Positions 4,683 through 31,149 of a DNA stretch of 38,981 nt are shown one piece after another. The notes under the pieces are model-generated. The model saw nothing but the letters and a program-made list of their open reading frames with translations. It searched no databases and had not been told where the DNA came from. Position 1 is the stretch's first letter, and every line of letters begins with the position of its first letter. The DNA lies in assembly GCA_015295945.1 (NCBI GenBank), contig DVED01000166.1, positions 1 through 38,981 on the forward strand, written 5' to 3'. A program made the translations under genes and the position numbers. The DNA comes from Oscillatoriales cyanobacterium M59_W2019_021. Its GTDB lineage: Bacteria > Cyanobacteriota > Cyanobacteriia > Cyanobacteriales > Geitlerinemataceae.

Positions 4683-5711
4683 TTAAATTTCAAACTCCTC
4701 CGTAACGCTAGCAGAATTGAGCGATAGAGTCGCACTAAATCGATCTCCCGGATCTCCTACTAATCGCAATTGAATGTAGTTGTCCGATTGCCGAGATTGT
4801 GTCTGCAATCGGGCATGACTCGCGCGATCTCGAACGCCTAATTGTAAGTTCGGTGAGAGATAAATATTCCCTCCCGTTGGATGCACTTGGAGGCGCACAT
4901 CTACTTTGTTATTTTCAATTTTCCTCAACTCAACCAACAGGACAACCGAACAACCCGACAATTGAATGCCGAGATCGATGGATTTACCCCGCCTCACCAG
5001 GGAACGATCGTCCGAATTCGAGGGCGAACTGGATAAATTGGGCGATCGAAACCGAAAATCTAAACAAGGTGCAGATCGCCCTAATAACCGATCAATCGCC
5101 TGCCAACCCACGTCAAAAATATCGTCAAACCATTGACTTAAATGGGTGACAGTTTCGTCAGTAATGGAACGATTCGATCTGCGAAAATCAGCTATAGTCT
5201 CATCAGAAACAGGCGGCGAGATCGTAATTTCAGAACGTTCGAGATCGTGCAACCGCACCAGTAAAGTATCGAGAGATTGCAGGCGATCGACATCAACTGT
5301 CATTTGCGCCACCTGCGGCACAAATCCTAATAGCGTTCCCTCAGAAAAATGTTCGTCCAATCGAACGATAATATAACCGATGCGATCGTGCCAAACGTCT
5401 GGAGGAATCGCACAACAGCGTTCCCCGCTTCGCAGCGATCGGCATTCTAAATGTCCGATTCCCGGAATGTCGATATCCGCAACATTTGCACACAAACGCC
5501 CCACCCGATTCCAGCTATAGCTCGATGTTAAACTCGTGGGAATTTCTAGCATTTCTAAATAGCGATTGACCACGAGAACGGCTAAGGTATTGAGATACAC
5601 TTGCTCGGATTTATCCGGGGTGGGTTGCTCTCGGGCAAATCGCAAGGCAATTTGGCGATCGGCTCGCCCAATAGGAATCGATATCGTCAGGTGTCCGGTA
5701 GAGTAAGTCAT
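4683..5711 (-). CDS. DUF1822 family protein
   Basis: This 342-aa protein has the hallmark DUF1822 N-terminus: QVYLNTLAVLVVNRYLEMLE near residues 38-57, a SYSWN motif, a VADIDIPGIGHLECR segment, and then PPDVWHDRIGYIIVRLDE followed by EGTLLGFVPQVA. This family is essentially cyanobacterial, its biochemical role is not established, and it is often encoded directly after a divergent sigma-factor-like gene, as here. The C-terminal ~150 residues include a hydrophobic strand-rich region (SIDLGIQLSGCSVVLLVEL) and end with short beta strands. It starts at ATG 5711, 45 bases after the sigma-like gene, so the two probably share a transcript. A regulator of, or effector for, that factor is a reasonable inference but unproven. 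Confidence 0.8.
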   Translation of the reverse strand: MTYSTGHLTISIPIGRADRQIALRFAREQPTPDKSEQVYLNTLAVLVVNRYLEMLEIPTSLTSSYSWNRVGRLCANVADIDIPGIGHLECRSLRSGERCCAIPPDVWHDRIGYIIVRLDEHFSEGTLLGFVPQVAQMTVDVDRLQSLDTLLVRLHDLERSEITISPPVSDETIADFRRSNRSITDETVTHLSQWFDDIFDVGWQAIDRLLGRSAPCLDFRFRSPNLSSSPSNSDDRSLVRRGKSIDLGIQLSGCSVVLLVELRKIENNKVDVRLQVHPTGGNIYLSPNLQLGVRDRASHARLQTQSRQSDNYIQLRLVGDPGDRFSATLSLNSASVTEEFEI

Positions 5712-5756
5712 GGAAATTGCGAATGTTGGATCTCAAAGGGATTTAGATGATGAGAA

Positions 5757-6431
5757 TTATAGATAACCTTGCGATCGACCGAATGCCAAAAGACGGGGGA
5801 AGCACTCTCGCTGATAAAAGTTACTGAGCGTCGAAATTCCCACCCCAAACTGTTGGGATAAATCTTCCCAAGACCTTTCAGGAGGCAAGCGATGTAAGAT
5901 TAAAACGTAACAGTTAATATCCGGGCGATTGCGGACGTGAATTTTACGCAATTGACGGCTTTCGTTTTCCACCCATTCTTTAATATCGTCTAAAATCGGT
6001 GGTGGTTCCGGCGGAGCGGCGATCGTCTCTACGGGATCTAAAGGTTCGTCGCGATAGTAAGGCATCCTTTTCTTTGCTCGTTCTGCTGCTTTCTGGAAAC
6101 GATCCTGAATGCGACGCTTGAGATAAGCGTTCAGCCAGGTGGTGATGCAACCTCGATTGGGATCGTAAGCCTGTCCCGTGGTGGGTTCGCAAAGATTGCG
6201 GCATAGGTACAGCCAAGTTTGTTGGAGGGCATCCTCGTAGTCGGAGTGGGCAAGTCCTGCCCCTCTCAAGAGTTTGCCCGATCGCTGAATTTCGCCAATC
6301 AGTTGATTGAGCCGTCTTCGACGTTCTAAGCTGCCTTTCGGGCAACAACAGGTTTTGGCAATCAGTCGATCGATATTCTCGTCCATTCTGTTGGTAGCTT
6401 GGATTGACGGCAAGTTTGGATGTTTTCTCAC
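5757..6431 (-). CDS. Divergent sigma-70 family factor
   Basis: Residues ~60-120 resemble sigma region 2: DYEDALQQTWLYLCRNL followed by YDPNRGCITTWLNAYLKRRI, the fold that binds the core-polymerase clamp and the -10 element. A Pro-rich linker follows, and the C-terminal ~50 residues (INCYVLILHRLPPERSW through GVGISTLSNFYQRE) form a helix-turn-helix like region 4. At 224 aa it has the two-domain size of alternative (ECF-like) sigma factors. The start is either GTG at 6431, which directly abuts the TAA of the MshEN gene, or ATG at 6386 (MDENIDRLIAK); neither has a strong Shine-Dalgarno sequence. A Cys cluster (KTCCCPKG) near the N-terminus is conspicuous and could be redox- or metal-sensitive. 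It sits in an operon with the MshEN protein upstream and DUF1822 downstream. Confidence 0.75.
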   Translation of the reverse strand: MRKHPNLPSIQATNRMDENIDRLIAKTCCCPKGSLERRRRLNQLIGEIQRSGKLLRGAGLAHSDYEDALQQTWLYLCRNLCEPTTGQAYDPNRGCITTWLNAYLKRRIQDRFQKAAERAKKRMPYYRDEPLDPVETIAAPPEPPPILDDIKEWVENESRQLRKIHVRNRPDINCYVLILHRLPPERSWEDLSQQFGVGISTLSNFYQRECFPRLLAFGRSQGYL

Positions 6432-7453: not shown

Positions 7454-8032
7454 ATGTTTGGAGAAAAAGCGAAGCAAAAGGAAGAAAAGATCGAACGACT
7501 AGAAGGTCAACTCGTCGCCGCGCAACAAGCCTTACAACAACAGATCGACGAGTTAAAACAGCACTGTCAAAGGCAAGATCGATGGTTAGAAGCGATCGAA
7601 CGGAAACTTCAGTATCTTTGCGCGGCAGCCGATGGAGAGTTTGCCGACGTGCGCCAGTCCATCGACGCCGGAGATCGAGACTTATCGCAAAAAGTCGAAC
7701 GACTGGACTTAGAAATTCAACGACAACACCGCTGGTTAAAACGGGGCTTCAAAAAAATAGCCCAAAATCTGAGCGAGAACCACAAGCAAAGAGAGTATCG
7801 TCTAGTGGAAGAACTGTGTCAATATTACAATCAGATGCTAGAAACTAAAATCTCCAAAGATGAGATGGCAGACATCTTATGGGAAATTTGCGATCGACTA
7901 GAAAATCGCCGCGATCTCGCCGCCAATGGCGAACGCGCCCTTGATCGTTCCGAAGCCATCCGCACCGCTCTCCACACCCCGAATTCCCATCGGTCTGGCT
8001 CGGAGTCGATCAGGCAAAAACATTTTTCCTGA
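7454..8032 (+). CDS. Coiled-coil hypothetical protein, 192 aa
   Basis: The first ~125 residues are strongly helical and charged with heptad-like spacing (KQKEEKIERLEGQLVAAQQA, QQQIDELKQHCQRQDRWLEA, DLSQKVERLDLEIQRQHRWL), i.e. a long coiled coil. A less charged helical segment follows (REYRLVEELCQYYNQMLE and DEMADILWEICDRLE) and then a polar, probably disordered tail. It has no signal peptide or membrane helix, so it is cytosolic. It lies 152 bases before the Roadblock-OmpA gene in the same orientation and may be the first gene of that transcription unit. Function unknown; a scaffold or partner of the GTPase module is only a suggestion from position. Confidence 0.65.
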   Translation: MFGEKAKQKEEKIERLEGQLVAAQQALQQQIDELKQHCQRQDRWLEAIERKLQYLCAAADGEFADVRQSIDAGDRDLSQKVERLDLEIQRQHRWLKRGFKKIAQNLSENHKQREYRLVEELCQYYNQMLETKISKDEMADILWEICDRLENRRDLAANGERALDRSEAIRTALHTPNSHRSGSESIRQKHFS

Positions 8033-8184
8033 CGCGCGTCCCCTCGATAGCATTGGGCGATCGCTCCCAGTCAAATCCCCCCAGAGGAGGAGTCCGATAT
8101 CGCCACACTTTGCCACCCCCCTGGAGTCTGTATTTTCGCTCTCGTTTCCCGTTTGAACTTCCCGCAGCCGCACTTGCTCGTTTT

Positions 8185-10524
8185 ATGACCGAAGATCGTC
8201 CTTCTCACCCTCACATTCGCGATCCCCATCGTGCAGAACGTGCAGATCGAGAACTCGAAGCCCTCCTCACCGTACTAAACGCCGCGATTCCCGAAGACCC
8301 GCTGAGGATTGCCCCAACCGACGGACGCACCACACCCACCCCAGAAACCATCCTGTCGTCTCTGGAAACGTCCCCGACAACGGCAATGGGAGGACGCTTG
8401 CTGCGGACCCTCGATCGCGCTGGCGATCCGCGATCGCAGCCTCCGACCGATCGACCGCCGGGACGCTTGCAGCGCTTGATGACCGTGCTAGAATCCACCG
8501 ATAACCCGCTGGAAGACGATCGACCCGCACCGCCTCCTGTGGAAGTGGAAGACACCCCAAACATAGAACCCGGAGCCCTCGTCGTCGAAGATGGGGATGG
8601 GACGACGTTGTATTTGCATCGTCCCGACCAATGGCAGTCCATCCACCACCAACTCGACTCCCTGGAACGCCAATTCCAACAACTTGCCGATCGCGTGGGC
8701 GAACCCACCGACCTGATTAACCCGCTCTTGCCCTTAATTAGCGAACTGCTGCGCACCAGTGCCACGAACACCCGCGAAGGCTTGTGCGATGCCATCGTCC
8801 CCATTCTTGACGAAATCGTGCGCAAACGCAGCCTGCAAGATCGCCAATCGTTGAGCGAAGCCCTTGCCGATTTAATTCCCGATGCCATCAGCCAGGAAAT
8901 TCGCAATTCCCCCGCACAAATTGCCAGTGCCATCGCCCCGGAAGTCGCGTTAGCCATCGAGAAGCAGATCCACCTCGATCGCGACGCCATTGCCAACGCC
9001 CTCGGTTCGGAAATGGGCAAAGCCATCAAAGCGCAAATTCACCTAGAACGCGACGCCATGGTAGATGCCTTGTATCCGGTGATCGGCAATACGATTTCCA
9101 AATACATGGTCGAGGTGATTCGGGAAATCAACGCCAAAGTGGAAAATGCCCTCAGTATCGAGGGGTTGCGCCGCAAAATGCGAGCTAGGATGCAGGGGGT
9201 TTCCGAAGCGGAGTTGATCCTGCGCGAATCGGTGACCTATACCGTCGAAGCCATTTTTTTAATCCACAAAAGCTCGGGATTGGTCATCGCTGAAACGCAA
9301 AAACCGCGAGACGAACGCTGGGAATCGGATATGATTGCCGGGATGCTCACCGCCATTCGCAGTTTTGCCAACGATTGTGTCGCTCAATCCGGACACACCT
9401 CGGAACTGCACGAAATTGAATATGGCAACTTGCAAATTATTTTGGAAGTGGCGGGCTATTGTTATTTAGCCGTGGTCGTTGCCGGCGATCCGTCCAAATC
9501 CTTTATCGAAAAGATGCGTCAAACCCTGAGTACGATCGTCGAAGACTACGATCGCCCTATCCAAACTTACGATGGCGATCCGGACACCATTCCCCCAGCG
9601 GTGACCCAGGCGATCGAAGCGCTGATGACCCCGGTCATCGAACCGGCAGAACCGCCCCGGAAATCCGCGCCTTGGACGTTGGGGATTTTGGGCGGATTGC
9701 TGTTGCTGGGCGTTTTGATTTGGGGGGGCAGAACTCTCTACCACCGCCATCTCGCCACTCAAGCCCTAGCGGCGATCGAAGCTACCCCGGAGTTAGCCGT
9801 ATATCGCCTCGACGCCCAAATGCGGCGGGGTCGGCTGCAACTGTCGGGCAAACTTCCCAACGCGCCCTTGTCGGCACTGGCAGAACGGGCGGTGCGACAA
9901 GCCCTGCCGCAGACCGAGATCGACAATACCATCCTCGCCGTAGACGTGCCTCCCGATCCGGTGTTGGTAGATGGGGAAGTGCAGCGTTTGGTTGCGGTCT
10001 TCAACCGGATGGCAGGCGTTGATATTTCCGCAAATTATGTGGACAATCAAGTTAGGGTTTGGGGTCAAATCGGTCGCAGCGAGGTCGCTGATCGCCTGAC
10101 CCAAGCCCTGGAGGGGATTCCGGGGGTTCGTTCGGTGGCGATCGTCGTCCGAGATCGGGATTTTTCCGAGGTCAAAGCCATCCGCATCTACTTCGACTCG
10201 GGATCGTCCCGTCCGATTTCCAACGGCTTAGACGCCAAACTCGACCTCGTTCGCCAATTGCTCGATCTCCACCCCGATCGGAAATTGCGGGTTATCGGTC
10301 ACAGCGATCGCCTCGGAACCCAGAATGTCAATCAGAAACTATCGCGCCAGCGTGCCGAAGCCGTCAAAGCACTGCTGGTCGAGCAAGGGGTTAACCCAGA
10401 CCGCTTGGACGTGGAAGGGATGCCCCAACCGCCAGCGGGAATGAGTCCCAACGACCCCTTAAGCTTGAGTCGATGCGTTCGCTTCGAGCCCCTCCAATCC
10501 GATGCCCATGGAAATGAGTTATGA
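8185..10524 (+). CDS. Trans-envelope protein: helical repeats, Roadblock/LC7-like domain, TM helix, two BON-like domains, OmpA domain
   Basis: From ATG 8185 (MTEDRPSHPH) the protein has 779 aa; a TTG 132 bases upstream gives an unlikely Pro/Arg-rich extension. Residues ~1-190 are Pro-rich and disordered with a helix. Residues ~235-320 hold about three ~23-residue helical repeats (IHLDRDAIANALGSEMGKAI, IHLERDAMVDALYPVIGNTI). Residues ~352-460 have the Roadblock/LC7 pattern (AIFLIHKSSGLVIAET, DMIAGMLTAIRSFAND, IEYGNLQIILEV, YLAVVVAGDP). A TM helix is at ~496-514, two BON-like segments at ~533-590 and 592-656, and the OmpA domain at ~664-768 with the peptidoglycan-binding GHSDRLG and LSRQRAEAV motifs. 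With no signal peptide, the Roadblock part should be cytosolic and BON/OmpA periplasmic. The stop overlaps the GTPase start, supporting a physical partnership. Confidence 0.8.
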   Translation: MTEDRPSHPHIRDPHRAERADRELEALLTVLNAAIPEDPLRIAPTDGRTTPTPETILSSLETSPTTAMGGRLLRTLDRAGDPRSQPPTDRPPGRLQRLMTVLESTDNPLEDDRPAPPPVEVEDTPNIEPGALVVEDGDGTTLYLHRPDQWQSIHHQLDSLERQFQQLADRVGEPTDLINPLLPLISELLRTSATNTREGLCDAIVPILDEIVRKRSLQDRQSLSEALADLIPDAISQEIRNSPAQIASAIAPEVALAIEKQIHLDRDAIANALGSEMGKAIKAQIHLERDAMVDALYPVIGNTISKYMVEVIREINAKVENALSIEGLRRKMRARMQGVSEAELILRESVTYTVEAIFLIHKSSGLVIAETQKPRDERWESDMIAGMLTAIRSFANDCVAQSGHTSELHEIEYGNLQIILEVAGYCYLAVVVAGDPSKSFIEKMRQTLSTIVEDYDRPIQTYDGDPDTIPPAVTQAIEALMTPVIEPAEPPRKSAPWTLGILGGLLLLGVLIWGGRTLYHRHLATQALAAIEATPELAVYRLDAQMRRGRLQLSGKLPNAPLSALAERAVRQALPQTEIDNTILAVDVPPDPVLVDGEVQRLVAVFNRMAGVDISANYVDNQVRVWGQIGRSEVADRLTQALEGIPGVRSVAIVVRDRDFSEVKAIRIYFDSGSSRPISNGLDAKLDLVRQLLDLHPDRKLRVIGHSDRLGTQNVNQKLSRQRAEAVKALLVEQGVNPDRLDVEGMPQPPAGMSPNDPLSLSRCVRFEPLQSDAHGNEL

Positions 10525-11045
10525 CAACCCTTTCAAAAAAAATTTGCATGGTGGGTGATTTTGGGGTAGGCAAAACGAGCCTCATTCGCCGTTACGTGGA
10601 AAATGCGTTTAGCGACCAGTATCTGTCCACTGTCGGCGTCAAAATTTCTCGCAAGACCCTGGAGTTGGAACGGGAAAAACCGCCGACGCCCGTGGCGTTG
10701 CAGTTGATGATCTGGGATTTGGAAGGGCATACTCGGTTTAAGTCGATCGCCCCGAGTTACTTGCAGGGGGCAAAAGGGGCGCTGGTGGTCGCCGACGTCA
10801 CCCGTCCGGAAACCATCGATCGGTTGACCGAACACATCGATCTGTTTGGCTCGGTCAATCCCGAGGGTCGGACGATCGTCGCGCTCAATAAATCCGATCT
10901 CTTACCGCGCGAGAAAACCGAGGCTTTGTTACAACAGGTATCAGGACTGGAGATCGATCGGCTGCTGTCCGTCCATCTGACCTCGGCTAAAACGGGCGAC
11001 TGCGTGAATTTAATTTTCGAGAAACTCGCCCGCCACTTGCTCTAA
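10521..11045 (+). CDS. Rab/MglA-like small Ras-superfamily GTPase
   Basis: A 174-aa GTPase with all five G motifs: P-loop GDFGVGKT at 12-19; switch I STVGVK with Thr37; WDLEGH at 65-70 (G3); NKSD at 123-126 (G4); TSAKTG at 154-159 (G5). The switch region YLSTVGVKISRKTLEL, followed by IWD and RFKSIAPSYLQGAKGALVV, is strikingly similar to eukaryotic Rab proteins. At the catalytic Gln position of Rab (WDTAGQ) it has His70. No C-terminal prenylation cysteine is present, so membrane recruitment must be by a partner. The ATG overlaps the TGA of the preceding gene (ATGA), implying translational coupling with the Roadblock-domain protein, the fold that regulates or binds such GTPases in MglA/MglB and Rag/Ragulator. 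Role in polarity or envelope control is inferred. Confidence 0.85.
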   Translation: MTTLSKKICMVGDFGVGKTSLIRRYVENAFSDQYLSTVGVKISRKTLELEREKPPTPVALQLMIWDLEGHTRFKSIAPSYLQGAKGALVVADVTRPETIDRLTEHIDLFGSVNPEGRTIVALNKSDLLPREKTEALLQQVSGLEIDRLLSVHLTSAKTGDCVNLIFEKLARHLL

Positions 11046-11163: not shown

Positions 11164-14100
11164 ATGGAGATATTCAAACGATTTTTATCTTCCATACAAC
11201 TTGAATATCTGATTGTCGATCGCCACTTGACGACGATCGAAATGTCTCCGGGGGTGAAGAAGTATGCCGATCGACCGATTCACGTTTGTCCCGGCAGCGA
11301 CGTGCGCTCGGCGTTCCCCGAAATCGTCGGCATGGAAGCACAACTACTATCGGTCCTCGATCGGCAAACCGATAGCTGGAATTTGTGCGGGATCGATCGC
11401 AGTCCCAGTCCCGATCGACCGCTCTACTTCGATTTGTACGCGCTGGGGGACGAGGCGGGCGGCGATCGCCTGTTTCTCTTTTTTGAAGACGCCACCGAGC
11501 GCATGGTGATGAAGCAGCAATTGGTGCAGGAGCTGCACGAAACCCAACTGTCCCTCGATCGACGGGTGGACGCGCGATCGTATATCGCGCAAGCCTTCGC
11601 CGAGATCGCCGACGTGGTGTTAATCGTCTCCCCGTCGGGAAACATCGTCGCGGCTAATCCCGCTGCCCGGAATGTCTTCGGTTATACAGAAGCCGAGTTG
11701 CACGATCGTCCACTCTCGGATCTGGTCGATCGCGGCGATCGCGTTTGGCAACGATTTCGACAGTTGCTGGAAAACGACCCCGACCTCGTTCCCGGCGAGA
11801 CTTACCTCGAACTCGACTGTCGCACTCGAGCCGGAAAAACCCGCTCTCTGATGTTTTCCTGCGCTCCGATGGCCGATCTCTGCGAGAAGGCTCCCGGCTT
11901 GCTCTGTATCGGGCGAGATATGACCCGATATAAAGACAACGAACGCTCGATCGTCAGGATGAAAGAAGTCCTGACCCAAAAAGTGATTCAAAAAAATACG
12001 CAACTTCAACAAACGATCGCTCGCTTGGAAACCGAGCTCGATCGGCGCCAGCGCACCGAAGCCGCCTTGCACAATATCGTTGAAGGGACAGCAGCCGTCA
12101 CCGGAGAGGATTTCTTTCCCGCCTTGGTGCGCCATCTCGCCCATGCCTTGAACGTGCGCTACGTGCTGGTGTCCGAGACGATCGCCGAGTCTCCGGACAG
12201 CTTAAATCTGCTCGCCGGCTGGGGAAGCGGTCAGCCGATTCCGCCTCAGATTTTAGACGCTCGCCACAAACCCTGCCGCTCGATTTGCGATCGCCAAGAA
12301 CCCCTGTGCTACTCGGATAATTTGCAAGAACACTTCCCCCATCCCGATATCGAGGCGATGGGGGCCGTCTCGTATTTCGGCGCGCCTCTGCTCGATTCGG
12401 AGGGACAGTCGATCGGCAGTCTGTGCGTTCTCGACGACAAACCGTTAGAAGACGAACTGCGGACGCGATCGATCGTCAGCATTTTTGCCGCCCGTGCCGC
12501 TGCCGAACTGCAACGCCAGCGATCGGAAGTCGCCCTGCACCGCGTCAACGACGAATTAGAAGCGCGCGTCCGGGAACGCACCCTCGAACTCGAAGCCGAA
12601 ATTGCCGATCGCGTCGAAGCCGAAGCGGCTCTGCGCGAAAGCGAGGAACGGTGGCAACTGGCGCTTAAAGGCACCGGAGACGGCATCTGGGATTGGAACC
12701 CGGTCACCAATAAAGTGTTTTTCTCGACCCGGTGGAAAGAGATGCTCGGGTATACTGACGAGGAGATCGGCAATGACTTGGAAGAATGGAGTAGCCGCGT
12801 GCATCCCGAAGACTTAGAGCGGGTACTGGCAGCCGTACAAGCGCATTTGCAGGGTCAAACGGCATTTTACACCACCGAACATCGGATGCGCTGCAAAGAC
12901 GGCAGTTATAAATGGATTCTCGATCGCGGACAAGCCCAGTGGGACGCAGCGGGCAACCCGGTGCGGGTGGTGGGGTCTCATACCGATATCAGCGATCGCA
13001 AGCACTCGGAAGAAGCCTTGCAAGCCAACGAAATTCGCTTGCGCAAACAGCAACTCGCCATGGTGGAACTGGCGAAAAAACAGGCATCCTATGCGGAAAA
13101 CTTGGAAACGGCTCTCGAAGAAATTACCCAAATTGCGGCTCGCACTCTCACGGTCGAACGAGTCAGCGTCTGGTTTTACACCGACGATCGCACTCGAGTT
13201 CGCTGCGCCCACTTGTACGAACTGAGTACCGATCGCCATTCTCAAGGGATGGAGCTATCGGTTGCCGATTATCCCGCGTACTTTCAAGCCCTGCATACCG
13301 ATCCCTCCATCGCTGCTAACGATGCCCGCCAAGATCCCCGCACTTGCGAATTTGGCGCCGACTATCTCGGCTCCCACGGTATCGACGCTATGTTAGACGT
13401 TCCCATTCGGGTGGGCGATCGCATCGTGGGAATTTTTTGCCACGAACACGTCGGCGAACCCCGCGTCTGGGCGATTGAAGAGCAAAACTTTGCCAATTAT
13501 CTGGCGCACGTCATTTCCCTGGCGATCGAAGGTCGCGATCGCGCCCGCGTCGAAGCCAGCCGCCAAGCTAGCGAACACCGACTGCGACGGCAACAAAGTG
13601 CCATGTTGGAATTAGCAGCCCAATCCACCTCTTCGACGGGAGACTTCGCTAGCGCCCTGCGCGAGATCGTCGAGATCGCCACCCGCACCTTAGAAGTTGA
13701 TCGCGCCAGCGCCTGGTTTTACAACGAAGATAAATCGAAAATTCGCTGCGTCCAACTCTACCAACTGAGTACCCATACGTATTCTGACGGCGCGGAACTG
13801 TCCGAGAGCGATTATCCGGGCTATTTTCAAGCTTTAGAACGAGAAGACGCCATCGCCGCCGACGACGCCCACCGCGATCCGCGAACCTGCGAGTTTAGCG
13901 CGGGATACCTCACCCCTTTGGGCATTACCTCCATGTTGGACGTGCCCATCCGCGTGGGGGGACACACCATCGGCGTTCTCTGCCACGAACACGTTGGCAA
14001 ACCGCGTATTTGGGCGATCGAAGAGCAAAACTTTGCTAATTACCTCGCCCACGTTATTGCCCTAGCCATCGAAACTCGCGATCGCACCCGCGCCGAAGCC

Positions 14101-17100
14101 GCTCACCAAGCTTCTCAAGAACGCCTCGACAGCATTCTCGCTTCTCTCGACGACGTGGTATGGTCCATGTCCCTGACGGCAGACAAACTGCTGTACTTGA
14201 ATCCCGCCGCGCGAAAAATCTACGGCAGACCGGAGCGGGAACTCCTAGACAACCCGGAACTGTGGCGAGATTCGATCCATCCCGACGATCGATCGCTCTG
14301 GGACAACGCCCGCCGCACCGTCTTGCAAACTGGCGGCGGCACGTTTGAGTACCGCATTGTCAACCCGTTCGGGAAAACCTACTGGTTGCAAGATCGCGTC
14401 CGCCTGATTCGCGACGAGACGGGAACCCCCATCCGCCTCGATGGCATCGCCCGGGATATTACCGAGCGCAAACGCTCGGAAGAACTGCGGCGGCAAAGCG
14501 AAGTGCGCCTGCGACGGCAACAACTGGCGATTCTGGAACTGGCAAGCCAACCGGCTTTGTACGTCGGAGATCTCGAATTCGCCCTGCGAGAAATTACCCT
14601 GATTGCCGCCCGCACCTTGGATGTAGAACGAGTCAGCGTTTGGTTCTACAACAAAGAGCGCACCATCCTCTCCTGCGTGCAGCGCTACGAAAACAGTACC
14701 GGAACCTACACCCAAAACGACGACGAAATGTCGGCGGCAGACAGCCAGCAATATTTCCAGGCGATCGAGTCCGATCGGGTGATCGCCGTCGATCGCGCCC
14801 AAAACGACCCCCGCACCCACGAATACAGCCAGCGCTATCTCATCCCCTTGGGGATTACCTCCACCATCGATGTTCCCATTCGCGCCAACGGGCAAACCGT
14901 CGGCGTTTTGTGTCACGAACACGTCGGTCTGCCCCGCACTTGGACGGTAGAGGAACAAAACTTTGCCAACTACCTCGCCTATGCCATCGCCTCGGTGTTG
15001 AGCGCTCGCGATCGCGCCGTTGCCGAAGCCGCTCGCGCCGAGAGCCAGGAGCGCCTCGACAGTATTCTCGCTTCCCTGGACGACGTGGTGTGGTCGCAAT
15101 GCTACCAAAGCCAAGAATTTCTCTACATCAGTGCGGCAGCCGAAAAAATTTACGGTCGAGGGGTTTCCGAATTTTTTGCCAACCCCGACCTGCGCTTGGC
15201 GGTCGTGCATCCGGACGATCGCCCGTCGGTAGAGCGCACCCACCACCACATCTCCCAAACCCACCACTACACCATCGAATACCGCATCCTTCAACCTTCC
15301 GGAGCGGTGCGCTGGATTCAAGATCGCGCCCGCCTCATTTTCGATGCTGCGGGCGTCCCCCTGCGCCTCGACGGCATTTCTCGAGATATTACCGCTCGCA
15401 AGCGCTCTGAAGAACGGATGCGCCAGCAAATCGCCGCGATCGAAGCCGCGAACGAAGGCATCGGCATCGTCAACGAACGGGGAGAATATCTCTACGTCAA
15501 CGACGCTCACCTGCGCTTGTTCGGATACACTCGCCCCGAAGACTTACTGGGGAAAACCTGGCGCGAACTGTACGAATCCGACGAAATCGCTCGTTTCGAG
15601 TCGGAAATTTTTCCCCTGGTTGAGGAACGGGGCAAGTGGCAGGGCGAAGCCATCGGCAAACGGGCAGATTCATCTTATTTTTGTCAAGACATTTCTCTAA
15701 CTTTGATCGAGAGCGTGGGTTTGATTTGCGTCTGTCGAGACATCAGCGATCGCAAGAAGTCAGAACAAGCTCTCGCCAAACGGGAACGCTATCTAGCAGC
15801 ATTGGTGGACGTACAGCGGCGATTGCTCGCCAGCGCCGATCGGCTCTCCAGCGACGCGAGTATTCTCGAACCTTTGGGACGAGCTGCCGGCGCCGGTCGG
15901 GTCTATCTATTTGAAAATCACCTCGACGCAACCGGTCGCCTCCTCGCCAGCCAGCGCGTCGAGTGGTGCGCCCCCGGCATTCAACCGCAAATGAACGATC
16001 CGGAGGTACAAACGTTTGCCTACGACGACGCCTGTCCCCGATGGGCGAAACGACTCAGTCGGGGCGAGATCGTCGCGGGTTTGACGGCTGACTTTCCGGA
16101 GGCAGAACGCCGACATCTAGAACAACAAGACATTTTGTCGATTTTGATCCTACCGCTGATCGTCAACGGCGAATTTTTCGGGTTTATCGGTTTCGATCGC
16201 TGTGAGGACGCAAAAATCTGGAAACCCCTGGAAGTCGATTTGTTGCGGGCGGCAGCCACGGCAATTTCTCTGTGTATCGAACGCCAACTCGCCGAACAAG
16301 CCCTAGAGCAAGAGCGACAACAACTGCGCCAAATCATCACCCACGTCCCCGTGGCGATGGCAATGCTCGATACGGAAATGCGTTATTTGGCATACAGCAA
16401 CCAATGGCTCGTCGATTACCAACTTCAGGGAGAACCCCTCATCGGGCGATCGCATTTTGAGGTCATCCCTGATTTGAAGCCCGAATGGCATTCCCTCTAC
16501 CAACAAGCCTTGCACGGGGAAGTTTTGGCGCACCCCGAAGATTGCTGGCAGCGGGCGGACGGCTCTAAGGTGTACCTGCGCTGGGCACTCCAACCTTGGT
16601 ACGTGAGCGAAGGACACATCGGCGGCATCGTCGTGGTGACTCAAGTCATTAACGAATTGGTAGGCGCTCGGGAATCTGCCCTGGAAGCCTCCCGGATGAA
16701 ATCCCAATTTCTCGCCAACATGAGCCACGAAATCCGCACCCCTATGAATGGGGTGATCGGGATGACCAATTTGCTGTTGAATACCCCCCTCAATGCCGAA
16801 CAGCGCGATTTCGTGCAAACCCTCAGAACCAGCGGTCAAAATCTGCTGGTTCTCTTAAACGACATTCTGGATTTCTCGAAGTTGGAAGCGGGAGAAATGC
16901 GCTTGGAATCGATGGACTTCGATTTAAATACCTGTTTGGAAGAAGTCATCGATTTGTTAGCCGCTCAAGCGCAAGCCAAAGAGCTAGAACTGTTTGCCAT
17001 GGCAGAAAGCAACGTACCCCTGATGTTGAAGGGGGATGCCTCTCGCTTGCGCCAAGTGCTGATCAACCTTGCCGGGAACGCGATTAAATTTACCGAAACC

Positions 17101-18711
17101 GGAGAAGTGGTCATTCGCGTTGCTCTTGCCGAAAGTCCGCCGAAATTCGCGGGTGGCAGTGGGAAAATGACGTTGCGGTTTGAGGTGCGCGATACCGGGA
17201 TCGGCATCGCCCCGGAAGACCAAAAGAAACTCTTTCAGTCTTTTTCTCAAGTGGATGCCTCGACGACGCGCAAGTACGGCGGAACGGGTTTGGGACTGGC
17301 AATCTGCAAGCAATTGGTGGCGTTGATGGATGGGGAAATCGGCGTCGAAAGCCATTCGGGTCGGGGTTCGACGTTTTGGTTCACCGCTCGGTTCGATCGC
17401 GCGCAATCGTCGGCGCATCCCCAGCGGAGCAAATTATCCAACCTCGCCGGGTTGAAATTGTTGGTGGTGGATGAAAATATTACCAGTTGTCGGGCGATTG
17501 CGGCTTATGCAGCAGCGTGGAATATGGAATGTCACGTCGTTCACAGCGCCCCAGCTGCCCTCACCAAGCTGCGCCGCGCTCTCGACAGCGGTCAACCCTA
17601 TCAGGTGGTGCTGATCGACCTGCAAAGTCCGGCGCTCAATGGGGAAATCTTGGGTCAATTGATTAGCTTCGATCCAGATTTATCCGGGACGAAATGGCTG
17701 GTGCAAGCATCGATCCACCAGCACGAGCAGGTGAAGCACCTATTGGAGAGGGGCGCGTCCGGTTACATCCTCAAACCGATGAAAGCCTCTCGATTGTTGG
17801 AAACGATTCACTACGCCAGTGGCATCGAGGAGTTCGAGGAGGACATCGATCTCGATCCCGATCTCCAAGTCGTCGAAAATGCCCAGTTATCGTCCCCGTC
17901 TACTCACTCTAAACTGGCTCATCTCAAGATTTTGGTGGTGGAAGATACCCCGATCAATCAGAAGGTGATCGTCAATCAACTCAAACGGCTGGGCATTCTT
18001 TCGATCTCTTGCGTGTCCAACGGTCGGGAAGCCCTCGAGGAACTCGATCGCCACTCTTACGATATCGTGTTCATGGATTGTTTGATGCCCGTTCTCGATG
18101 GCTACGAAACGACGAAAGCGTTACGAATGCGGGAAGACTCCACGAGACACATCACGGTGATCGCCATGACGGCAAACGCGCTGAAGGGCGATCGAGAAAA
18201 ATGCTTGGCGGCGGGAATGGACGACTATCTCAGCAAGCCCGTCGATCTCGACGATTTGGTGCGGGTGTTGACCCAGTGGACGGGAGGGGTTTCGGAAACG
18301 GTCGCGCCCCCGGAGGATATTCCCAGTCCGACCCCACCTCCAACTTTACCGCCAACGGAGACCGATGTGCCCCCAGTGGATCTCGATCGCCTTGCCGAAC
18401 TGACTCAAGGGGATTGGGAGTTTCAGATGGAGGTGTTGGCAACATTCTACGAGGACGCGATCGCCAAACTCCCCTCTCTGCGACAATCTGTGCGAGATCG
18501 ATCGTGGGAAAGCACCGCCCGATTGGCTCACCAACTCAAAGGTTCCAGCAGCACGGCGGCAGTGCTCCACATTCCCGAACTCGCCGAACGACTCGAGGAT
18601 CTCGCTCGCACCCACCACCTGGACTCGTCGCGGGAATTGGTCGATCTCATCGACGAGAATTTAGAACGAGTTCGCCAGTTTATTGATCGTCACGCAGTTA
18701 CCAGTCGTTAG
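11164..18711 (+). CDS. Giant multi-PAS/GAF hybrid histidine kinase with two receivers and HPt
   Basis: 2515 aa, no signal peptide or TM helix, hence cytosolic. Approximate order: divergent PAS-like 1-115; PAS 136-256; GAF 300-450; coiled coil; PAS 492-617; GAF 629-795; GAF 806-979; PAS 983-1108; GAF 1115-1283; PAS 1294-1419; PAS 1420-1538; GAF 1538-1713; PAS 1719-1836; HisKA with phospho-accepting His1855 ([10 protein letters not shown]); HATPase with [11 protein letters not shown] and [12 protein letters not shown]1 ~2092-2220 (Asp2152, LKPM Lys); REC2 ~2252-2373 (Asp2305 in FMDCLMP, LSKP Lys); HPt ~2385-2500 with His2456 (AHQLKGSS). All phosphorelay residues are present. GAFs 2-4 are internal duplicates sharing DVPIR, CHEHVG and [10 protein letters not shown]. 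It lies 118 bases after the GTPase gene, same strand. Signals sensed are unknown. Confidence 0.9.
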
Positions 18712-24397: not shown

Positions 24398-27118
24398 TTA
24401 GGAATCCCGTAGCACCGATTGGGTTAAGCGAACGATAACATCCAAGCGGAAATCATTCGCCAAATCTAAAAGAGATTCAGCAAGCTGAACTCGATTGTCA
24501 GGGATTTGTTCGATCAACTCAAGTACCGCGTCTTCATTGACTTGATTAGCGGCTCGATTGAGCGTTCGGACCCAGGAAATTGGCATTTCCCGCAGTTGAG
24601 CAACGATAAAAGATTCACTCTCGCTAACTTTCCGTAAAGAAAGACGAGATTCTGGCATACTTTCATAACGATAGCACACGCCCAAATAGCGAGTGAGGGT
24701 GTCGAGAGCCATCACCTCAGAAATGGGTTTGCAAACTGCATCATCGTAACCGACTGCCTTCATCGCCTCTAGATCCCGATTGTCTGGGATAGTAGTCCTC
24801 ATACCGATAATCACCGTGGGTTTGTCCCGCGTTTTGCCCCGGCGTTCCCGGGCGCGAATTTGCTGCGTGGCGGTCAATCCGTCGGCAATGGGCATGCGCT
24901 CGTCCATCCACACCAGATGGGGTTGCCAGCGTTCCCACTTCACTACCGCTTCTAAGCCATTTTCGGCACTGCGAACCTCAAAGCCGATGTTTTCCAGTAA
25001 CGTCACCAGCAACGTGCGACTGTCAGGATCGTTATCGACGACGAGGATGCGAAACGTCGGTTGACCCGGTTCTAAACCCACGGCAACCGATCGATCGATC
25101 TCGACGGCGTTTCGTTCTTCTAGAAGCGGCGTTATCGCGACATCGAAGGAGAGAGTCGTTCCCTCGCCTACCCGACTGCTGACGGAAATTTCGCCCCCCA
25201 TCAACCGCACGAACTGGCGGGTAATTGCCAACCCCAAACCCGTCCCGCTGCCGGATTGCCGTCCGGATTGGGTTTGGGCGAATGCCTCGAACACGCGATC
25301 GACTTCTTCTGGGGCGATGCCGATGCCCGTGTCGCGAATTTCTACGCGCAGATAATTGATGCGTTTTGCCCCCTTTTGTCTTTCAGTCGGACGAACGCTC
25401 GATGAAACTTTAAGGGTAATGCTGCCTTGGTGGGTAAATTTCAGGGCATTGCTGAGGGGATTGACCAAACACGATCGCAGTTTTTTGCGATCGCCTCGGA
25501 CGTAGCGAGGAACCCCAGGTTCGATACAAGAGACTAATTGTAACTCCTTTTGTTCGGCTTGGGCTTTAAATAGCTCCACCGAACTCTCGATGAGGTCGTA
25601 CAAATCGAAGTTGCTTTCGTCGAGGGACATCCGTCCCGCTTCCAGTTTGGCTAAATCCAAAATATCGTCGATCAGTTCTAACAAATGCTCGCTGCTGCGA
25701 TACACGATGTCGAGATAGTCGCGGTGGGAAGGTTTCAAGTCGGCATCGCGTCTCACAATTTGAGTGAATCCCAAAATCGCATTCAAAGGCGTTCGCAACT
25801 CGTGACTCATATTTGCCAAGAACTGACTCTTCGTTTGGGAGGCGGCTTCGGCGCGAATGCGATCGCGCTCCAGTTGGAATTGTTGCTGCTTCAGTTGCTC
25901 TCGTTCTCGTTGCAGTTGCCGCAGGTGGTACATGGTGACGGTGGTTGCCGAGGCGACCGAGGCGATAAAGGGGGCGATCGTCGGCAGCCAAACATTGGCG
26001 AGAAATGCCCCGTAGCTGCTCGTAAAAAGGACGATACAGCCGAACGCACCGCAGATAACGATCGCCCCCGTTCCCGAAGCCAGACGTCGTTCGTCGTCCC
26101 GCATGGCGAACAACTTCCAGGGAACGATCGCCCCGGCGGCAGACCACACCCCCATCCACAGCCATTCTACGGGTTCTGGCAGGGTGCGAATCGGCGATCG
26201 CCCGTCGAGTGCAGCACTGAGTAATTGACTGGCAAGGTTGGCGTGAACGACGATACCGGGAACCGCTTGGGGGGTGTTGGAGGAGCGATGGCTCAACGGC
26301 GTATAGAAGAAGTCGTTGAGGCTGGGGGCAACCGAACCGATGAGAACGATGCGATCGCGCACCCAGTCGGGATCGAGAGGATGATTTAAGACTTGAGTTA
26401 GGGAAAGAGTGCGAAAATTTTCCAAGTTTCCGCGATAGTTGAGTAAAATTTGATAGCCGCTGTCATTGGTGCGGACATAGCCCCCATTGTTACCGTCGAA
26501 GGGAACGAACGTTGCCTTTCCCAAACGGTAGCGTTTCTGGATGGGGTCGATCTCTTCTAAAGCAATGTCTCGTTTCTCGAGATACATCAATGCTAATTTG
26601 GCACCCAAACTCAATCGCAGCGATTCGTCGGGGAGGGGATGGGAGAGTAAGGCACGGCGGATAGTACCATCGGCATCAACCAATAAATCCGTCAGTGCCA
26701 CTCGATCGGTTTCCTGTAAGCTTTTCGGCGGCGGGACTCGTTCGCCAATGCCTTTCTCAACGCAAATCAAATTGGGCGTCGATGCCAGCAACGCTTGCCA
26801 TTGGGCATTTCCGGGGGCGACCGGTAAATTGCGATACAAGTCCAAACCGATCGCTGCCGGATCGTACCCTTGGAGGATGCGAATGAGACGGACGAGGGTG
26901 TCGTCGGACAGGGGCCACTGTCCCACCGTTTCGATATCCGTTTCGTCGATGGTGACGATGGTCAGGCGATCGTCGATGGGTTCGATTGCCCGCAGGCTAA
27001 GCAGGCGATCGTACACCGCCCATTCAGGGACTTGAAATAACCCGGCAAATTGCAACAACCCGGTGAGGCTTGCAGTTGCTAGGGCACAGAGCGAGACAGG
27101 CAGCCAAGGGAGATTCAT
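24398..27118 (-). CDS. CHASE2-domain hybrid histidine kinase (CHASE2-TM-HK-REC)
   Basis: 906 aa. An N-terminal membrane anchor (LPVSLCALATASLTGLLQF) leads into an extracytoplasmic CHASE2 sensor (~30-310) with the typical VYDRLLSLR, ITIDETDIE-like VTIDETDIE, IGLDLYR and DRIVLIGSVAPSLNDFFYTP motifs. Two to three TM helices follow at ~318-395 and a coiled coil at ~395-430. HisKA has His439 in MSHELRTPLN. HATPase has [21 protein letters not shown] and [10 protein letters not shown]. The receiver (~705-830) has Asp739 in VWMDERMP and Lys in CKPI. A C-terminal ~75-residue helical tail ends the protein. CHASE2 senses unknown extracellular or periplasmic signals. It forms an operon with the REC-HK gene and lies next to DUF928 and CHAT genes, a neighbourhood I recall from cyanobacterial genomes. 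Confidence 0.9.
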   Translation of the reverse strand: MNLPWLPVSLCALATASLTGLLQFAGLFQVPEWAVYDRLLSLRAIEPIDDRLTIVTIDETDIETVGQWPLSDDTLVRLIRILQGYDPAAIGLDLYRNLPVAPGNAQWQALLASTPNLICVEKGIGERVPPPKSLQETDRVALTDLLVDADGTIRRALLSHPLPDESLRLSLGAKLALMYLEKRDIALEEIDPIQKRYRLGKATFVPFDGNNGGYVRTNDSGYQILLNYRGNLENFRTLSLTQVLNHPLDPDWVRDRIVLIGSVAPSLNDFFYTPLSHRSSNTPQAVPGIVVHANLASQLLSAALDGRSPIRTLPEPVEWLWMGVWSAAGAIVPWKLFAMRDDERRLASGTGAIVICGAFGCIVLFTSSYGAFLANVWLPTIAPFIASVASATTVTMYHLRQLQREREQLKQQQFQLERDRIRAEAASQTKSQFLANMSHELRTPLNAILGFTQIVRRDADLKPSHRDYLDIVYRSSEHLLELIDDILDLAKLEAGRMSLDESNFDLYDLIESSVELFKAQAEQKELQLVSCIEPGVPRYVRGDRKKLRSCLVNPLSNALKFTHQGSITLKVSSSVRPTERQKGAKRINYLRVEIRDTGIGIAPEEVDRVFEAFAQTQSGRQSGSGTGLGLAITRQFVRLMGGEISVSSRVGEGTTLSFDVAITPLLEERNAVEIDRSVAVGLEPGQPTFRILVVDNDPDSRTLLVTLLENIGFEVRSAENGLEAVVKWERWQPHLVWMDERMPIADGLTATQQIRARERRGKTRDKPTVIIGMRTTIPDNRDLEAMKAVGYDDAVCKPISEVMALDTLTRYLGVCYRYESMPESRLSLRKVSESESFIVAQLREMPISWVRTLNRAANQVNEDAVLELIEQIPDNRVQLAESLLDLANDFRLDVIVRLTQSVLRDS

Positions 27119-28335: not shown

Positions 28336-30960
28336 TCACAACCAATTCCCCACCAGAACGTACGGCGACCAGAAAAAGGGGTGCCGAAATTGGGGATCTT
28401 GTAAGAGAGAGCGTTGTGCCGATCGCAAGGCTTCGGCTTTACTCATGCCCGGATGTCCGGCGAGTTGCTCGTAGAATAGCACCATTAAGCGAGCCGCAGA
28501 GGCATCGCTGACTTGCCAAAGGGTTCCTACGGTACTGCGGGCGCCCGATCGCACCGCCAATCCCGCCAAACCCAGCGCTGCCCGTCGATCGCCCGTTGCC
28601 GTTTGACAGGCACTCAGCACCAGTAATTCGATGGGGAAATCGAACGATCGCCCCGCTAACAACCGATCTAAATCCTTCACGCCAAGGCGATCGTCCCAGG
28701 TCAGCAAAAAGGTATTTGCCGCTTGGGAACTGAACTGACCGTGGGTAGCCAGATGCACGATCGGGTAAGGAAAGCGGGCGATCTCGGCTTGCAGGCGATC
28801 GACGGTAAAGTCGCCATCCAGCAAGATCGCCGAGGGCAATAGATCGGCAATGCCGCGCGTTTCGGCGAGAACGGCAGGCAGGGCGGGAAAACCCTGACGT
28901 GCTTGGCTGAGTCCGCCCAGCAGTCCTTCGAGGCGATCGGCACTTAAAGGGGCGGGATCGAGCAACCGCGCTCCCGGTGCGATGGCGATACTATATTTTT
29001 CGATGGAATAGCGCTCGCCGTCGAACAGCGCGGTCATGGGTATATTTTGCAGGAGACTGTCGAGGGAAAACACCAGGGTTTGGACGTTTTGCTCTTGCAG
29101 TCGCGCGTCTGCCGGACGAATCAACCAATCGTAGAGTTGCGCTGCAAAGTTCTGGCGATCTTCATCGAAGAAGACGGGATTTAAATAGAGTTTGAATTGA
29201 TCGAGGGTGGCAGCAATTTCGCCAACGGGATGCCGCGTTTCGTAGTAAAACAAGGGGGAGTTCGGAAAGGAAACGAGAACGGCGAGGCGTTCTTCCCCTA
29301 CGGCGGGTAAAACGATCGGGTAGAAGACAGCAGCGCCATCGTCAACATCGTCGATCGATTGCGCGTAGCCCTCCCAGCACGCTTCTCGAAAGAAGTTTTC
29401 CAATTCAACCCGCTGCAAGGCGGCGATCGTCTCTTTGGCTTGTTGCAACTGCCCTTGACTGGGATTGCCGTCCAGGAACAGGGCGATCGCTTCTCGATAT
29501 AGAGGTTCGATTTCCTCAGAGAAGAAAAATTGCGCGTCGGCGTCGAGGGTCGCCCAGTCGCGGCGGATCGATTGCAGGGTCTCGATCTCCTGAGTATAAA
29601 CGGCGATCGCCTGTTGGGTTTGCCCTTGTTGCCGCAGCAGTCGCCCTAGCTGCCACTGCCAACGCACGGTCATTTCCGGTGCGGACAATCCGGCAGCAAT
29701 CGAGAGCGCCCGTTCGGTGAGGCGTTGCGCCTCTTGCCACTGTCCGGCAGCTTCGTAGAGTTTGCCCAAGGTGCCCACGGCGTAAGACTCGGCGGTGCGA
29801 TTGTCGAGTTCTCGCGCCTGGCGGACGGCTGTTGCCAACTGTTCGGCAATGGGAAGATCTGGAAATTGCAGTTGCAGTAGGCTTTCAGCAAAATTGATGC
29901 GGGCGTATGTCGAGGCGCGACTGGGGGGCAATTCCTCGATTTGGGCGGTAATGCCATCGACGAGGGTCGAGACGTCCGTTCCCGGTGCGGTGTCCATCGC
30001 CAGAGAGAGCTGATTGAGTTGCGCTTGTACTGGCAAGAGGGGATCGATCGCCGTTTCGGCAGCTTGTCGGTATGTCGCGATCGCCGCTGCGGGACGTTGC
30101 AAGGCGCGCAGGGCATTGCCCAAACTCAACAGCGTCGCGCTCAAATCGTCGTGTTTCAGGGGATCGGTAGCGGCAAGTTGCGTGCCGATTTCCACACTGC
30201 GATCGAGCCATTGTTTCCCTTCTTCTAAATTGCCCAGAGCGATAGCTGCTTCCCCCAACATCCGCCATCCCGTCGCTTTTAAAGCCGGATCGGATTGGCT
30301 TTGCAGTTGGGATAAAGCGTGTTGTAAAAGGGTTCGCGATCGCGGATACAACCCCAAATTTTGCAAGGCACGGGCGCGATCGATTTGAGTACCGAGTTTG
30401 CCGATTTCATCCCCGAGGCGATCGTATTCGGCTTCCGCTTGTTGCCAAGTTGAGAGGGCGGCTTCTGGCTGTCCTAGAGCGAGTTGAATGTTGCCGCGAA
30501 CGTTGAGCGATCGGGCTAGCAGTTGCGCTTGAGATTGCGTTAAACTAATGTTTTGAGGAAGCAGGCTCAAGACATTGTCGATGGTTTCTTCTGCTTCCTT
30601 TAAGCGATCTAAATTGAAGTAAGCGCTGGCTAAGTAACTGAGCGATCGAGCTTGGTTGAGGAGATCGCCCCGTCGGGAAAATTCCCGTGCGGCTTGCTGC
30701 CAAACCCGACTGGCTGCGGTCAATCGACCGACGGTAAATAAGGCTTTTCCCCGTTCGAGTAACGAATTGGGATCGTCGGCATCGCTGGATTTAATCTTAA
30801 AAAAGACAGTGGGTTGTGGGTATTTTTCGCGAACGATCGGGCGTTTGATTTCAGGGGAAAGTTCGATCTCGCTCGATCGACTCCCAGCCGTGCTTATTTC
30901 TATGCAAATAACTAAGGCAATTATAAAAATTACCGCAATACTAGACAAAAGCCTTTTCAT
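28336..30960 (-). CDS. Exported TPR-CHAT protein (caspase-like)
   Basis: 874 aa. A signal peptide (MKRLLSSIAVIFIIALVICI) ends near STAG. Residues ~55-450 are TPR-like helical pairs (SLLERGKALFTVGRLTAASR, SLSYLASAYFNLDRLKEAEE, LNVRGNIQLALGQPEAALST). Residues ~540-874 form the CHAT domain, a clan CD (caspase/separase) peptidase relative. Both dyad residues are present: His740 in HLATHGQF and Cys785 in LVLSACQTA, followed by GLAGLAVRSGARSTVGTLW. CHAT proteins include proven proteases (gasdermin-cleaving or type III-E CRISPR-linked), but most cyanobacterial TPR-CHAT proteins are untested. It should act in the periplasm or outside. It shares a 189-base divergent spacer with the TPS exoprotein gene, a natural candidate partner or substrate; this is inference. 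Confidence 0.9.
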   Translation of the reverse strand: MKRLLSSIAVIFIIALVICIEISTAGSRSSEIELSPEIKRPIVREKYPQPTVFFKIKSSDADDPNSLLERGKALFTVGRLTAASRVWQQAAREFSRRGDLLNQARSLSYLASAYFNLDRLKEAEETIDNVLSLLPQNISLTQSQAQLLARSLNVRGNIQLALGQPEAALSTWQQAEAEYDRLGDEIGKLGTQIDRARALQNLGLYPRSRTLLQHALSQLQSQSDPALKATGWRMLGEAAIALGNLEEGKQWLDRSVEIGTQLAATDPLKHDDLSATLLSLGNALRALQRPAAAIATYRQAAETAIDPLLPVQAQLNQLSLAMDTAPGTDVSTLVDGITAQIEELPPSRASTYARINFAESLLQLQFPDLPIAEQLATAVRQARELDNRTAESYAVGTLGKLYEAAGQWQEAQRLTERALSIAAGLSAPEMTVRWQWQLGRLLRQQGQTQQAIAVYTQEIETLQSIRRDWATLDADAQFFFSEEIEPLYREAIALFLDGNPSQGQLQQAKETIAALQRVELENFFREACWEGYAQSIDDVDDGAAVFYPIVLPAVGEERLAVLVSFPNSPLFYYETRHPVGEIAATLDQFKLYLNPVFFDEDRQNFAAQLYDWLIRPADARLQEQNVQTLVFSLDSLLQNIPMTALFDGERYSIEKYSIAIAPGARLLDPAPLSADRLEGLLGGLSQARQGFPALPAVLAETRGIADLLPSAILLDGDFTVDRLQAEIARFPYPIVHLATHGQFSSQAANTFLLTWDDRLGVKDLDRLLAGRSFDFPIELLVLSACQTATGDRRAALGLAGLAVRSGARSTVGTLWQVSDASAARLMVLFYEQLAGHPGMSKAEALRSAQRSLLQDPQFRHPFFWSPYVLVGNWL

Positions 30961-31149
30961 TTTTAGGTGTTTTTTAAAACCTTAATGACAGTTTGAAAAT
31001 AAGCAATTGATACCAATTTTCGATTTAATTTATGACAAATATTACAATTCGATCGAGAAGATTTAATTCCTACTTTTAGGCGATTCCTCACTCCTAATTA
31101 CGAAGGATTTATATTTCCGTCTTCGAGACGTTGACAAATCAACAAAAAA
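30961..31149. promoter_or_regulatory. Divergent promoter region between CHAT and TPS genes
   Basis: This AT-rich 189-base spacer separates two back-to-back genes and so must drive both. A TTGACA at 31130-31135 lies only ~15 bases before the TPS start and is too close to serve as its -35 element. The palindromic AGGTGTTTTTTAAAACCT next to the CHAT start could be an operator or an mRNA hairpin. Confidence 0.4.

Follow-up and report, generated by a model that had tools for sequence, protein, structure and literature searches.

A membrane-spanning OmpA-type protein with a predicted longin-like domain, encoded directly before a Rab-like GTPase in an Oscillatoriales cyanobacterium

What kind of cytosolic domain is encoded next to a small GTPase in a cyanobacterium, and could it connect that GTPase to the cell wall? 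These questions are raised by P0001, an open reading frame (ORF) in contig DVED01000166.1 of Oscillatoriales cyanobacterium M59_W2019_021, of which a stretch of 38,981 nucleotides (nt), here called the window, was analysed; all positions are numbered over the whole window. P0001 extends on the + strand from an ATG at 8185 to a stop at 10524 and encodes 779 amino acids (aa): a helical region, a predicted longin-like domain, a transmembrane (TM) helix, a BON-like segment and an OmpA domain. A Rab-like GTPase of 174 aa is encoded by the following ORF (10521-11045, + strand), the start of which overlaps the P0001 stop as ATGA at 10521-10524. This anatomy and the overlap are confirmed as observed in the sequence, the TM-BON-OmpA part and the overlap as proposed in an original prediction from this locus. 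With moderate confidence, on sequence and model evidence, we favour the reading that P0001 is a wall-anchored, membrane-spanning longin platform controlling a Rup GTPase that feeds a histidine kinase.

The domain on which this reading turns (P0001 residues 350-482; 9232-9630, + strand) was modelled with AlphaFold2 in two proteins. Model 1 (m9ba747377b9f) covers residues 269-482 of the window protein and was built from a 124-row alignment (A2), which lacks L042, L054 and L055 (full domain absent from the match) as well as L002 and L056-L058 (copies of loci already included). Model 2 (mcd7da6b9518c) represents a 157-aa Anaerolineae homologue and was built from 135 rows (A3, with L139 and four duplicates left out). 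In both, the predicted order is b1-b2-a1-b3-b4-b5-a2-a3, which is of the longin type with a3 after a2; it reads E-E-H-E-E-E-H-H from residue 84 of model 1, and in model 2 (predicted local distance difference test [pLDDT] 79) it is preceded by a helix at residues 19-27. The best VIA match of model 1 is the Sec22b longin (Z 14.5 over 123 residues), followed by VAMP7 (13.3), Ykt6 (12.8), synbindin (12.0), Fuzzy-Inturned (11.8) and a Lokiarchaeal longin (10.8). Model 2 best matches Fuzzy-Inturned/CPLANE chains (Z 13.3 over 121 residues), with TRAPP chain 2j3t_D (12.9) and Sec22b (12.8) close behind.

Roadblock structures are matched as well, at lower scores: two Ego3 entries (Z 9.9 and 9.7) are the Roadblock-type structures recognised among the 50 matches listed for model 1, and model 2 finds Roadblock3 (Z 11.3, 101 residues aligned) and MglB (10.8). 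The alignments differ in extent. In model 2, longins align through a3, to residue 155-157, whereas Roadblocks align from their own residue ~16-27, skipping their first helix, and stop at model residue 133-138, before a3; the Ego3 alignments of model 1 end at residues 194-197, also ahead of a3. Relative to Roadblocks, longins have lost an N-terminal helix and gained a C-terminal one (PMC10933270; the papers cited here by PMC number were available in part, and statements taken from them refer to those parts). Because the longin alignments reach a3 and the Roadblock alignments omit it, matching this criterion, the domain is called longin-like here. The original prediction had named it a Roadblock/LC7 segment and suggested modelling the region alone; the predicted fold makes that name true at the level of the Roadblock/longin superfamily, and both the order of elements and the best matches indicate that "longin" fits better.

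Taken literally, the earlier name amounts to an alternative in which the domain is an MglB-like Roadblock/LC7 that serves as GTPase-activating protein (GAP) for the neighbouring GTPase. It would explain the Roadblock matches (Z up to 11.3 over 101 residues; Foldseek E 4e-4), core and GTPase-binding mode are common to Roadblocks and longins (PMC3521125, PMC10933270), and the catalytic Gln is missing from the GTPase, so outside help is plausible. We nevertheless consider it quite improbable: in both models longins outscore Roadblocks and align over more residues, the 2014 survey of Wuichet & Sogaard-Andersen did not group the domain with MglB homologues (PMC4316618), and the Pfam family Robl_LC7 (PF03259) reaches 2 of the 135 members at a best E of 0.013 (0.026 for 2 of 124) and none in the window protein. 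Several observations do weigh against a longin assignment. The mean pLDDT of model 1 is just 68 (b1 about 78-84; b2 and a1 58-69, the central helix being near 58; b4 to a3 85-94). Both models have a short helix before b1 (pLDDT below 50 in model 1; residues 19-27 in model 2), and both Ego3 alignments, starting at residue 73 of model 1, include this helix, which a Roadblock requires. Foldseek E-values fail to separate longins from Roadblocks for either model, and the A2 and A3 alignments have most of their rows in common. From sequence only, the longin evidence is non-significant: TRAPP Bet5 ranks first in a PDB profile search with E 0.08 and 0.36. The best longin family in Pfam, Fuz_longin_1, reaches E 3.7e-5 (2 of 135 members; 7e-5 for 3 of 124), and unrelated Pfam families reach 7e-4 and 1.2e-3.

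Searches with the window protein itself gave no Pfam or NCBIfam call for the cytosolic part, including no Roadblock match, and no Fuz_longin_1 match in the Pfam scan; Pfam Roadblock is absent from the whole source genome at E<=1e-3. The domain has a conserved motif, MLTAIRxF, which maps in model 1 to the central helix a1 (residues 381-399, with Arg392; 9325-9381, + strand). MLTAIR is present in 41 of the 44 A2 sequences that were not selected by motif (the Arg in 43), and in 10 of 11 sequences of the Chloroflexota phylum found by profile. In a further 80 loci (L059-L138) the motif is there by construction, as these were found with the pattern [GA]MLTA[IM]R[SD]F. Residues ~281-440 are the best conserved stretch of P0001 among 30 aligned sequences, window included, and the first ~150 residues are poorly conserved. 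Because of this poor conservation and an in-frame upstream TTG at 8053, the start codon of P0001 is uncertain. The cytosolic region before the domain (residues ~195-349; 8767-9231, + strand) appears helical and partly repeated; from residue 269 on it is modelled in part as low-confidence helices, and extra matches to profile positions ~1-40 in several genomes suggest that it contains internal repeats.

Does the protein have the topology needed to connect this domain with the envelope? On a crude hydropathy scale P0001 has two peaks, at 494 (the TM helix, residues ~494-513; 9664-9723, + strand) and at 416 (within a strand predicted for the domain); the N-terminus has none. The TM helix that was originally proposed is borne out, and nearly all complete homologous ORFs (113 of 116) have a TM-like stretch following the domain. 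Beyond the helix lies an OmpA domain of the peptidoglycan-binding type (Pfam, residues 669-746, E 7e-15; 10189-10422, + strand) with GHSD and RQRA motifs. The BON domain named together with it fared less well, its match being weak and under the curated cut-off (residues 523-572, E 1.8e-4; 9751-9900, + strand). The quoted motifs YLAVVVAGDP, GHSDRLG and LSRQRAEAV are all present, and the predicted arrangement, with the longin-like domain inside and the wall-binding type domain outside, agrees with the one first put forward.

The outer module is exchanged between phyla. In L107, L103, L125 and L137, four proteins whose records carry the name Chloroflexi or Anaerolineae, and in L118, from an unclassified bacterium, Pfam finds bacterial SH3_3, above the curated cut-off in L103 and L137, and does not list OmpA. 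In a comparison set of five proteins from other groups OmpA is found in four (below the cut-off in L085), and the Pfam scan of the outer part of the fifth, L094, gave neither OmpA nor SH3_3. Both SH3b and OmpA domains are able to bind the cell wall. The swap of one wall-type domain for another, with longin-like domain and TM helix retained, supports an envelope role of the P0001 family, and it makes "wall = ligand" a direct, testable idea.

The partner is a GTPase of the Rab type. Its Pfam matches are Ras (E 3.8e-25) and Roc (E 6e-25), its best PDB match is Rab6 (E 1.8e-20), and the matches listed at E<=1e-10 (60 of 203) are all of the Rab family, Sec4 and Ypt included; no second match to it was found in the source genome at E<=1e-3. 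It carries standard G1-G5 motifs (GDFGVGKTS, T37, WDLEG, NKSD and TSAK), and the P-loop, G2, G4 and G5 are conserved across 95 GTPase sequences. G3 reads WDLEGH in the window, with His70 where the catalytic Gln would follow DxxG. Across the 95 sequences this position is His in 20, Ser in 16, Glu in 15, Gln in 10, Asp in 9, Arg in 8, Ile in 7, Lys in 5, other residues in 4 and a gap in 1. Leaving the gap aside, 84 of 94 GTPases therefore lack the catalytic Gln, and the ten that have it are all from relatives of the window.

Co-occurrence of the two genes was counted in 59 genomes (the source genome and its relatives). At E<=1e-3, with weak generic matches counted, 43 of them match P0001 and 45 match the GTPase. 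After sorting by hand, at about E 1e-20 and with the longin region required, 39 genomes have both, one has the longin protein only (G042, 61% complete), none has the GTPase only and 19 have neither (Fisher 1.4e-14); a genome with an OmpA-only match (G055) and one with a decayed copy (G057) were counted as neither. The decayed copy itself (G057:C1:1426489-1427311) consists of longin-OmpA and GTPase fragments side by side.

A pattern scan of 84,980 species' genomes gave 347 relatives, the best 80 of which are the loci L059-L138. By their titles, these 80 come from Cyanobacteria, Chloroflexi/Anaerolineae, Gemmatimonadetes, Bacteroidetes, Planctomycetes, Acidobacteria, Verrucomicrobia, Desulfo-type bacteria, Gammaproteobacteria, Polyangia, Deinococcales, KSB1 and Calditrichaeota. 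The pair as a cyanobacterial oddity is ruled out by this spread. In the window's phylum the profile matches 33 of 291 genomes, and in that of the Anaerolineae locus L107 it matches 12 of 251, the genome with this locus included. Judged by these searches, the P0001 family is widespread but patchy, in many bacterial phyla. In five genomes of one genus (g6; L013-L016 and L019) the P0001 match has one in-frame stop, which probably lies right at the 3' end of the gene.

Linkage was counted at 123 loci, 13 of which had less than 2 kb downstream and were set aside. A same-strand GTPase follows within 6 kb in 91 of the remaining 110 and within 1.6 kb of the domain in 90; the pairing with a Rab-like GTPase is conserved. 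The exact ATGA overlap is also present at 21 of 92 other loci, and stop and start are at most 50 nt apart in 67 of the 92. Distances between longin sequences and between GTPase sequences correlate with r 0.895 over 95 pairs, within-cluster shuffles reaching at most 0.76. Two points tell against a functional pairing. In 19 of the 110 loci no same-strand GTPase was found downstream in the stretch examined (it is on the opposite strand in eight and upstream in one; in L022, L024 and L029 a same-strand GTPase lies about 2.7-2.8 kb past the gene). Matching distance matrices are also expected from simple co-inheritance; the correlation shows that the two sequences are inherited as a unit, not that they are in contact. 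Homologues without a nearby same-strand GTPase are what one would expect if the neighbours were unrelated and P0001 an ordinary wall-binding protein. Set against the pairing across many phyla, the co-occurrence in 59 genomes and the tight spacing, this explanation is very hard to credit. Extra longin-OmpA paralogues occur in window-related genomes at L049, L050 and L052, with no GTPase downstream in the stretch examined.

To what known system does the locus belong? Group 1 Rup GTPases, with Cyanobacteria (Nostoc punctiforme for one) among their hosts, have been described computationally (Wuichet & Sogaard-Andersen 2014, PMC4316618). According to that account they lack the Gln of G3, contact with MglB homologues is not predicted, and three neighbours are conserved: a cytoplasmic coiled-coil protein, a protein whose unknown domain often precedes TM and OmpA, and an output protein whose N-terminal region has an invariant Gln. 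By gene content the window is a Group 1 Rup locus with all four genes present. As all four match the 2014 neighbourhood, the gene set was already known, its cytosolic domain having had no name there. The presence of Gln in 10 of 94 GTPases means that the missing-Gln rule for Group 1 Rup is not absolute. In 2014 no member of the Rup family had been experimentally characterised (PMC4316618), and a search of titles and abstract openings in the open-licence PMC literature found no experiment on the Rup system or on the longin domain of these bacterial proteins. The original statement that the combination was undescribed therefore holds for experiments in that literature and not for computational description.

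Two genes of the set had been missed by the original prediction. The first is the upstream gene at 7454-8032 (+ strand), which encodes a small coiled-coil-like protein of 192 aa; the coiled coil was assigned by composition and by eye. Its product has blastp matches (E<=1e-3) at 24 of the 30 loci L002-L031, one of which (L002) is the window itself, and by a crude composition rule a coiled-coil-like ORF lies upstream at 71 of 78 loci with enough room. The second is a giant hybrid histidine kinase of 2515 aa (11164-18711, + strand), the output of the set, in which Pfam identifies PAS, GAF, HisKA, HATPase, two receivers and Hpt. Its N-terminal input domain (11164-11538, + strand; PAS-like by eye) matches the output profile with E 8.8e-44, the window being one of the rows from which that profile was built. 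We read Gln122 of the kinase as the counterpart of the invariant output Gln in the logo of Wuichet & Sogaard-Andersen 2014. All 44 output domains that were aligned, found at 43 of 94 loci and in the window, have this Gln (profile-building rows included).

The same authors proposed that the output N-terminal domain supplies the catalytic Gln in trans and is thus the GAP, which would leave the longin protein a mere anchor. The conservation of the Gln in 44/44 output domains and the absence of Gln from 84/94 GTPases, that of the window among them, fit this proposal, yet the output Gln sits (by eye) in a helix after the domain, where a signalling role is equally likely; we think it unlikely that the proposal describes this locus. 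The simpler notion that the kinase Gln is a substitute for the one lost from the GTPase was rejected: all six checkable Gln-bearing GTPases (of ten) are paired with Gln-bearing outputs, and therefore the two Gln residues are not mutually replacing.

Output proteins were scanned at 45 of 55 loci picked for their downstream protein, together with the N-terminal part of the window kinase (46 in all). Ten were left out (L045, L066, L070, L072, L083, L087, L088, L094, L101 and L118), mostly lying more than 1.4 kb from the GTPase, with L083 (395 nt) and L101 (552 nt) as exceptions; two of the 45 that were scanned, L076 and L080, seem to be out of frame. HATPase_c was found in 24 of the 46, HisKA in 20, sigma-54 activators in eight, nucleotide cyclases in four and GGDEF in two, and by eye the outputs of L053 and L078 resemble a protein kinase and a phosphatase. 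Of the eight sigma-54 activators, seven have, by eye, a Rup-type N-terminal domain and stand directly after the GTPase: L104, L108, L112, L113 and L114 from KSB1, L127 from Calditrichaeota and the unclassified L136. In the eighth, L098, such a domain was not found by eye. These outputs point to two-component, sigma-54 and cyclic-nucleotide signalling; a role of the set in polarity or gliding would be only a guess. A divergent set is present in the window relatives L039 and L040 (about 3.5-6.4 kb), where cyclase-like and then histidine-kinase-like outputs follow (by eye, with cyclase matches in the domain scan).

How might such a set work? Under the favoured reading, the OmpA part of P0001 would grip peptidoglycan outside the cell, and the longin domain inside would serve as a docking and control platform for the Rab-like GTPase of the next gene. 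The state of the envelope would be read through the TM helix and would alter either the hold of the platform on the GTPase or the nucleotide that it carries, and the GTPase could then switch the histidine kinase via its N-terminal domain. What the sequences show directly is co-inheritance, the order of domains, the set of genes and the swap of the outer module between phyla; the longin fold is a prediction, and wall binding, GTPase binding, nucleotide exchange or hydrolysis and the direction of signalling are the steps that we infer. The orientation of the bound GTPase is conserved in Roadblock/longin platforms (PMC10933270). A more specific version is that the longin domain is a TRAPP- or Mon1-Ccz1-like nucleotide exchange factor for Rup, with the envelope signal activating exchange. 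The Rab exchange factors TRAPP, Mon1-Ccz1 and Fuzzy-Inturned are among the folds close to the domain, and the GTPase beside it is Rab-like; on the other hand, equal or better matches come from SNARE longins and adaptor subunits, none of them exchange factors, and P0001 has one such domain where TRAPP has a longin heterodimer platform (PMC10933270). We regard exchange activity as doubtful.

Elsewhere in the window, a gene for a DUF1822 protein (342 aa, E 5.7e-69) adjoins one for a 224-aa protein with a weak sigma-70 region 2 match (E 0.01) upstream of the set (4683-6431, - strand), possibly a divergent sigma factor pair. At 28336-33918 a TPR-CHAT protein (- strand) adjoins a 922-aa TPS-secretion-domain protein (+ strand); a CHASE2 hybrid kinase is encoded nearby (24398-27118). 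The window has 6 promoter-like sites (3.1 in shuffles, standard deviation [sd] 1.9) and 5 terminator-like sites (6.0 in shuffles, sd 2.8), which were uninformative.

A wider proposal, possible and offered tentatively, is that Rab-longin signalling pairs exist in bacteria of many phyla: the longin would share an operon with Rup, which has been called the closest prokaryotic kin of Rab/Ras, and would be connected across the membrane with the wall. If true, the Rab-longin partnership may predate eukaryotes, and its first form may have been an envelope-sensing switch that feeds kinases, sigma-54 activators and cyclases. The longin fold is usually discussed as eukaryotic and Asgard; a true longin next to those bacterial GTPases that are most akin to Rab would bear on the origin of membrane-traffic switches. 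For Rup, the predicted platform domain offers a partner that can be tested.

Longin domains regulate Rabs in eukaryotes, and the locus resembles the longin Rab regulators TRAPP Bet5/Trs23, Mon1-Ccz1 and Fuzzy-Inturned in placing a predicted longin fold beside a Rab-type GTPase. It differs from them in being bacterial, in joining the longin to a TM helix and a domain of the wall-binding type, and in encoding it together with the GTPase. MglB and CvnB, Roadblock proteins that are not known to have a wall domain, pair with MglA-type GTPases. MglA-MglB and the actinobacterial conservons CvnA-D share with the present set a small GTPase and a platform of the Roadblock/longin superfamily, and the conservons also include a histidine kinase; here, in contrast, the predicted order is that of a longin, and a TM helix, a wall-type domain and a Rup/Rab-like GTPase are present. 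With Group 1 Rup as described in the available part of PMC4316618, the window shares a Gln-less GTPase, a coiled coil, the domain-TM-OmpA protein and a Gln-bearing output. The domain left unnamed there has a predicted longin fold here, and SH3b in place of OmpA, sigma-54 activator outputs and occurrence in Gemmatimonadota, Planctomycetota, Acidobacteriota, Verrucomicrobiota and KSB1 go beyond that account. Longin/Roadblock has been jointly recorded as present in bacteria (PMC4917890), and the origin of longins is usually placed in archaea or in prokaryotic Roadblocks (PMC3521125, PMC10933270), from which they are held to be derived (PMC3521125). Asgard longins (PDB 8yqg; Z 10.8 and 10.7) are likewise prokaryotic and of the same fold class; in the archaeon MK-D1, GTPase genes are generally not in operons with longin genes (PMC10933270), whereas here they are.

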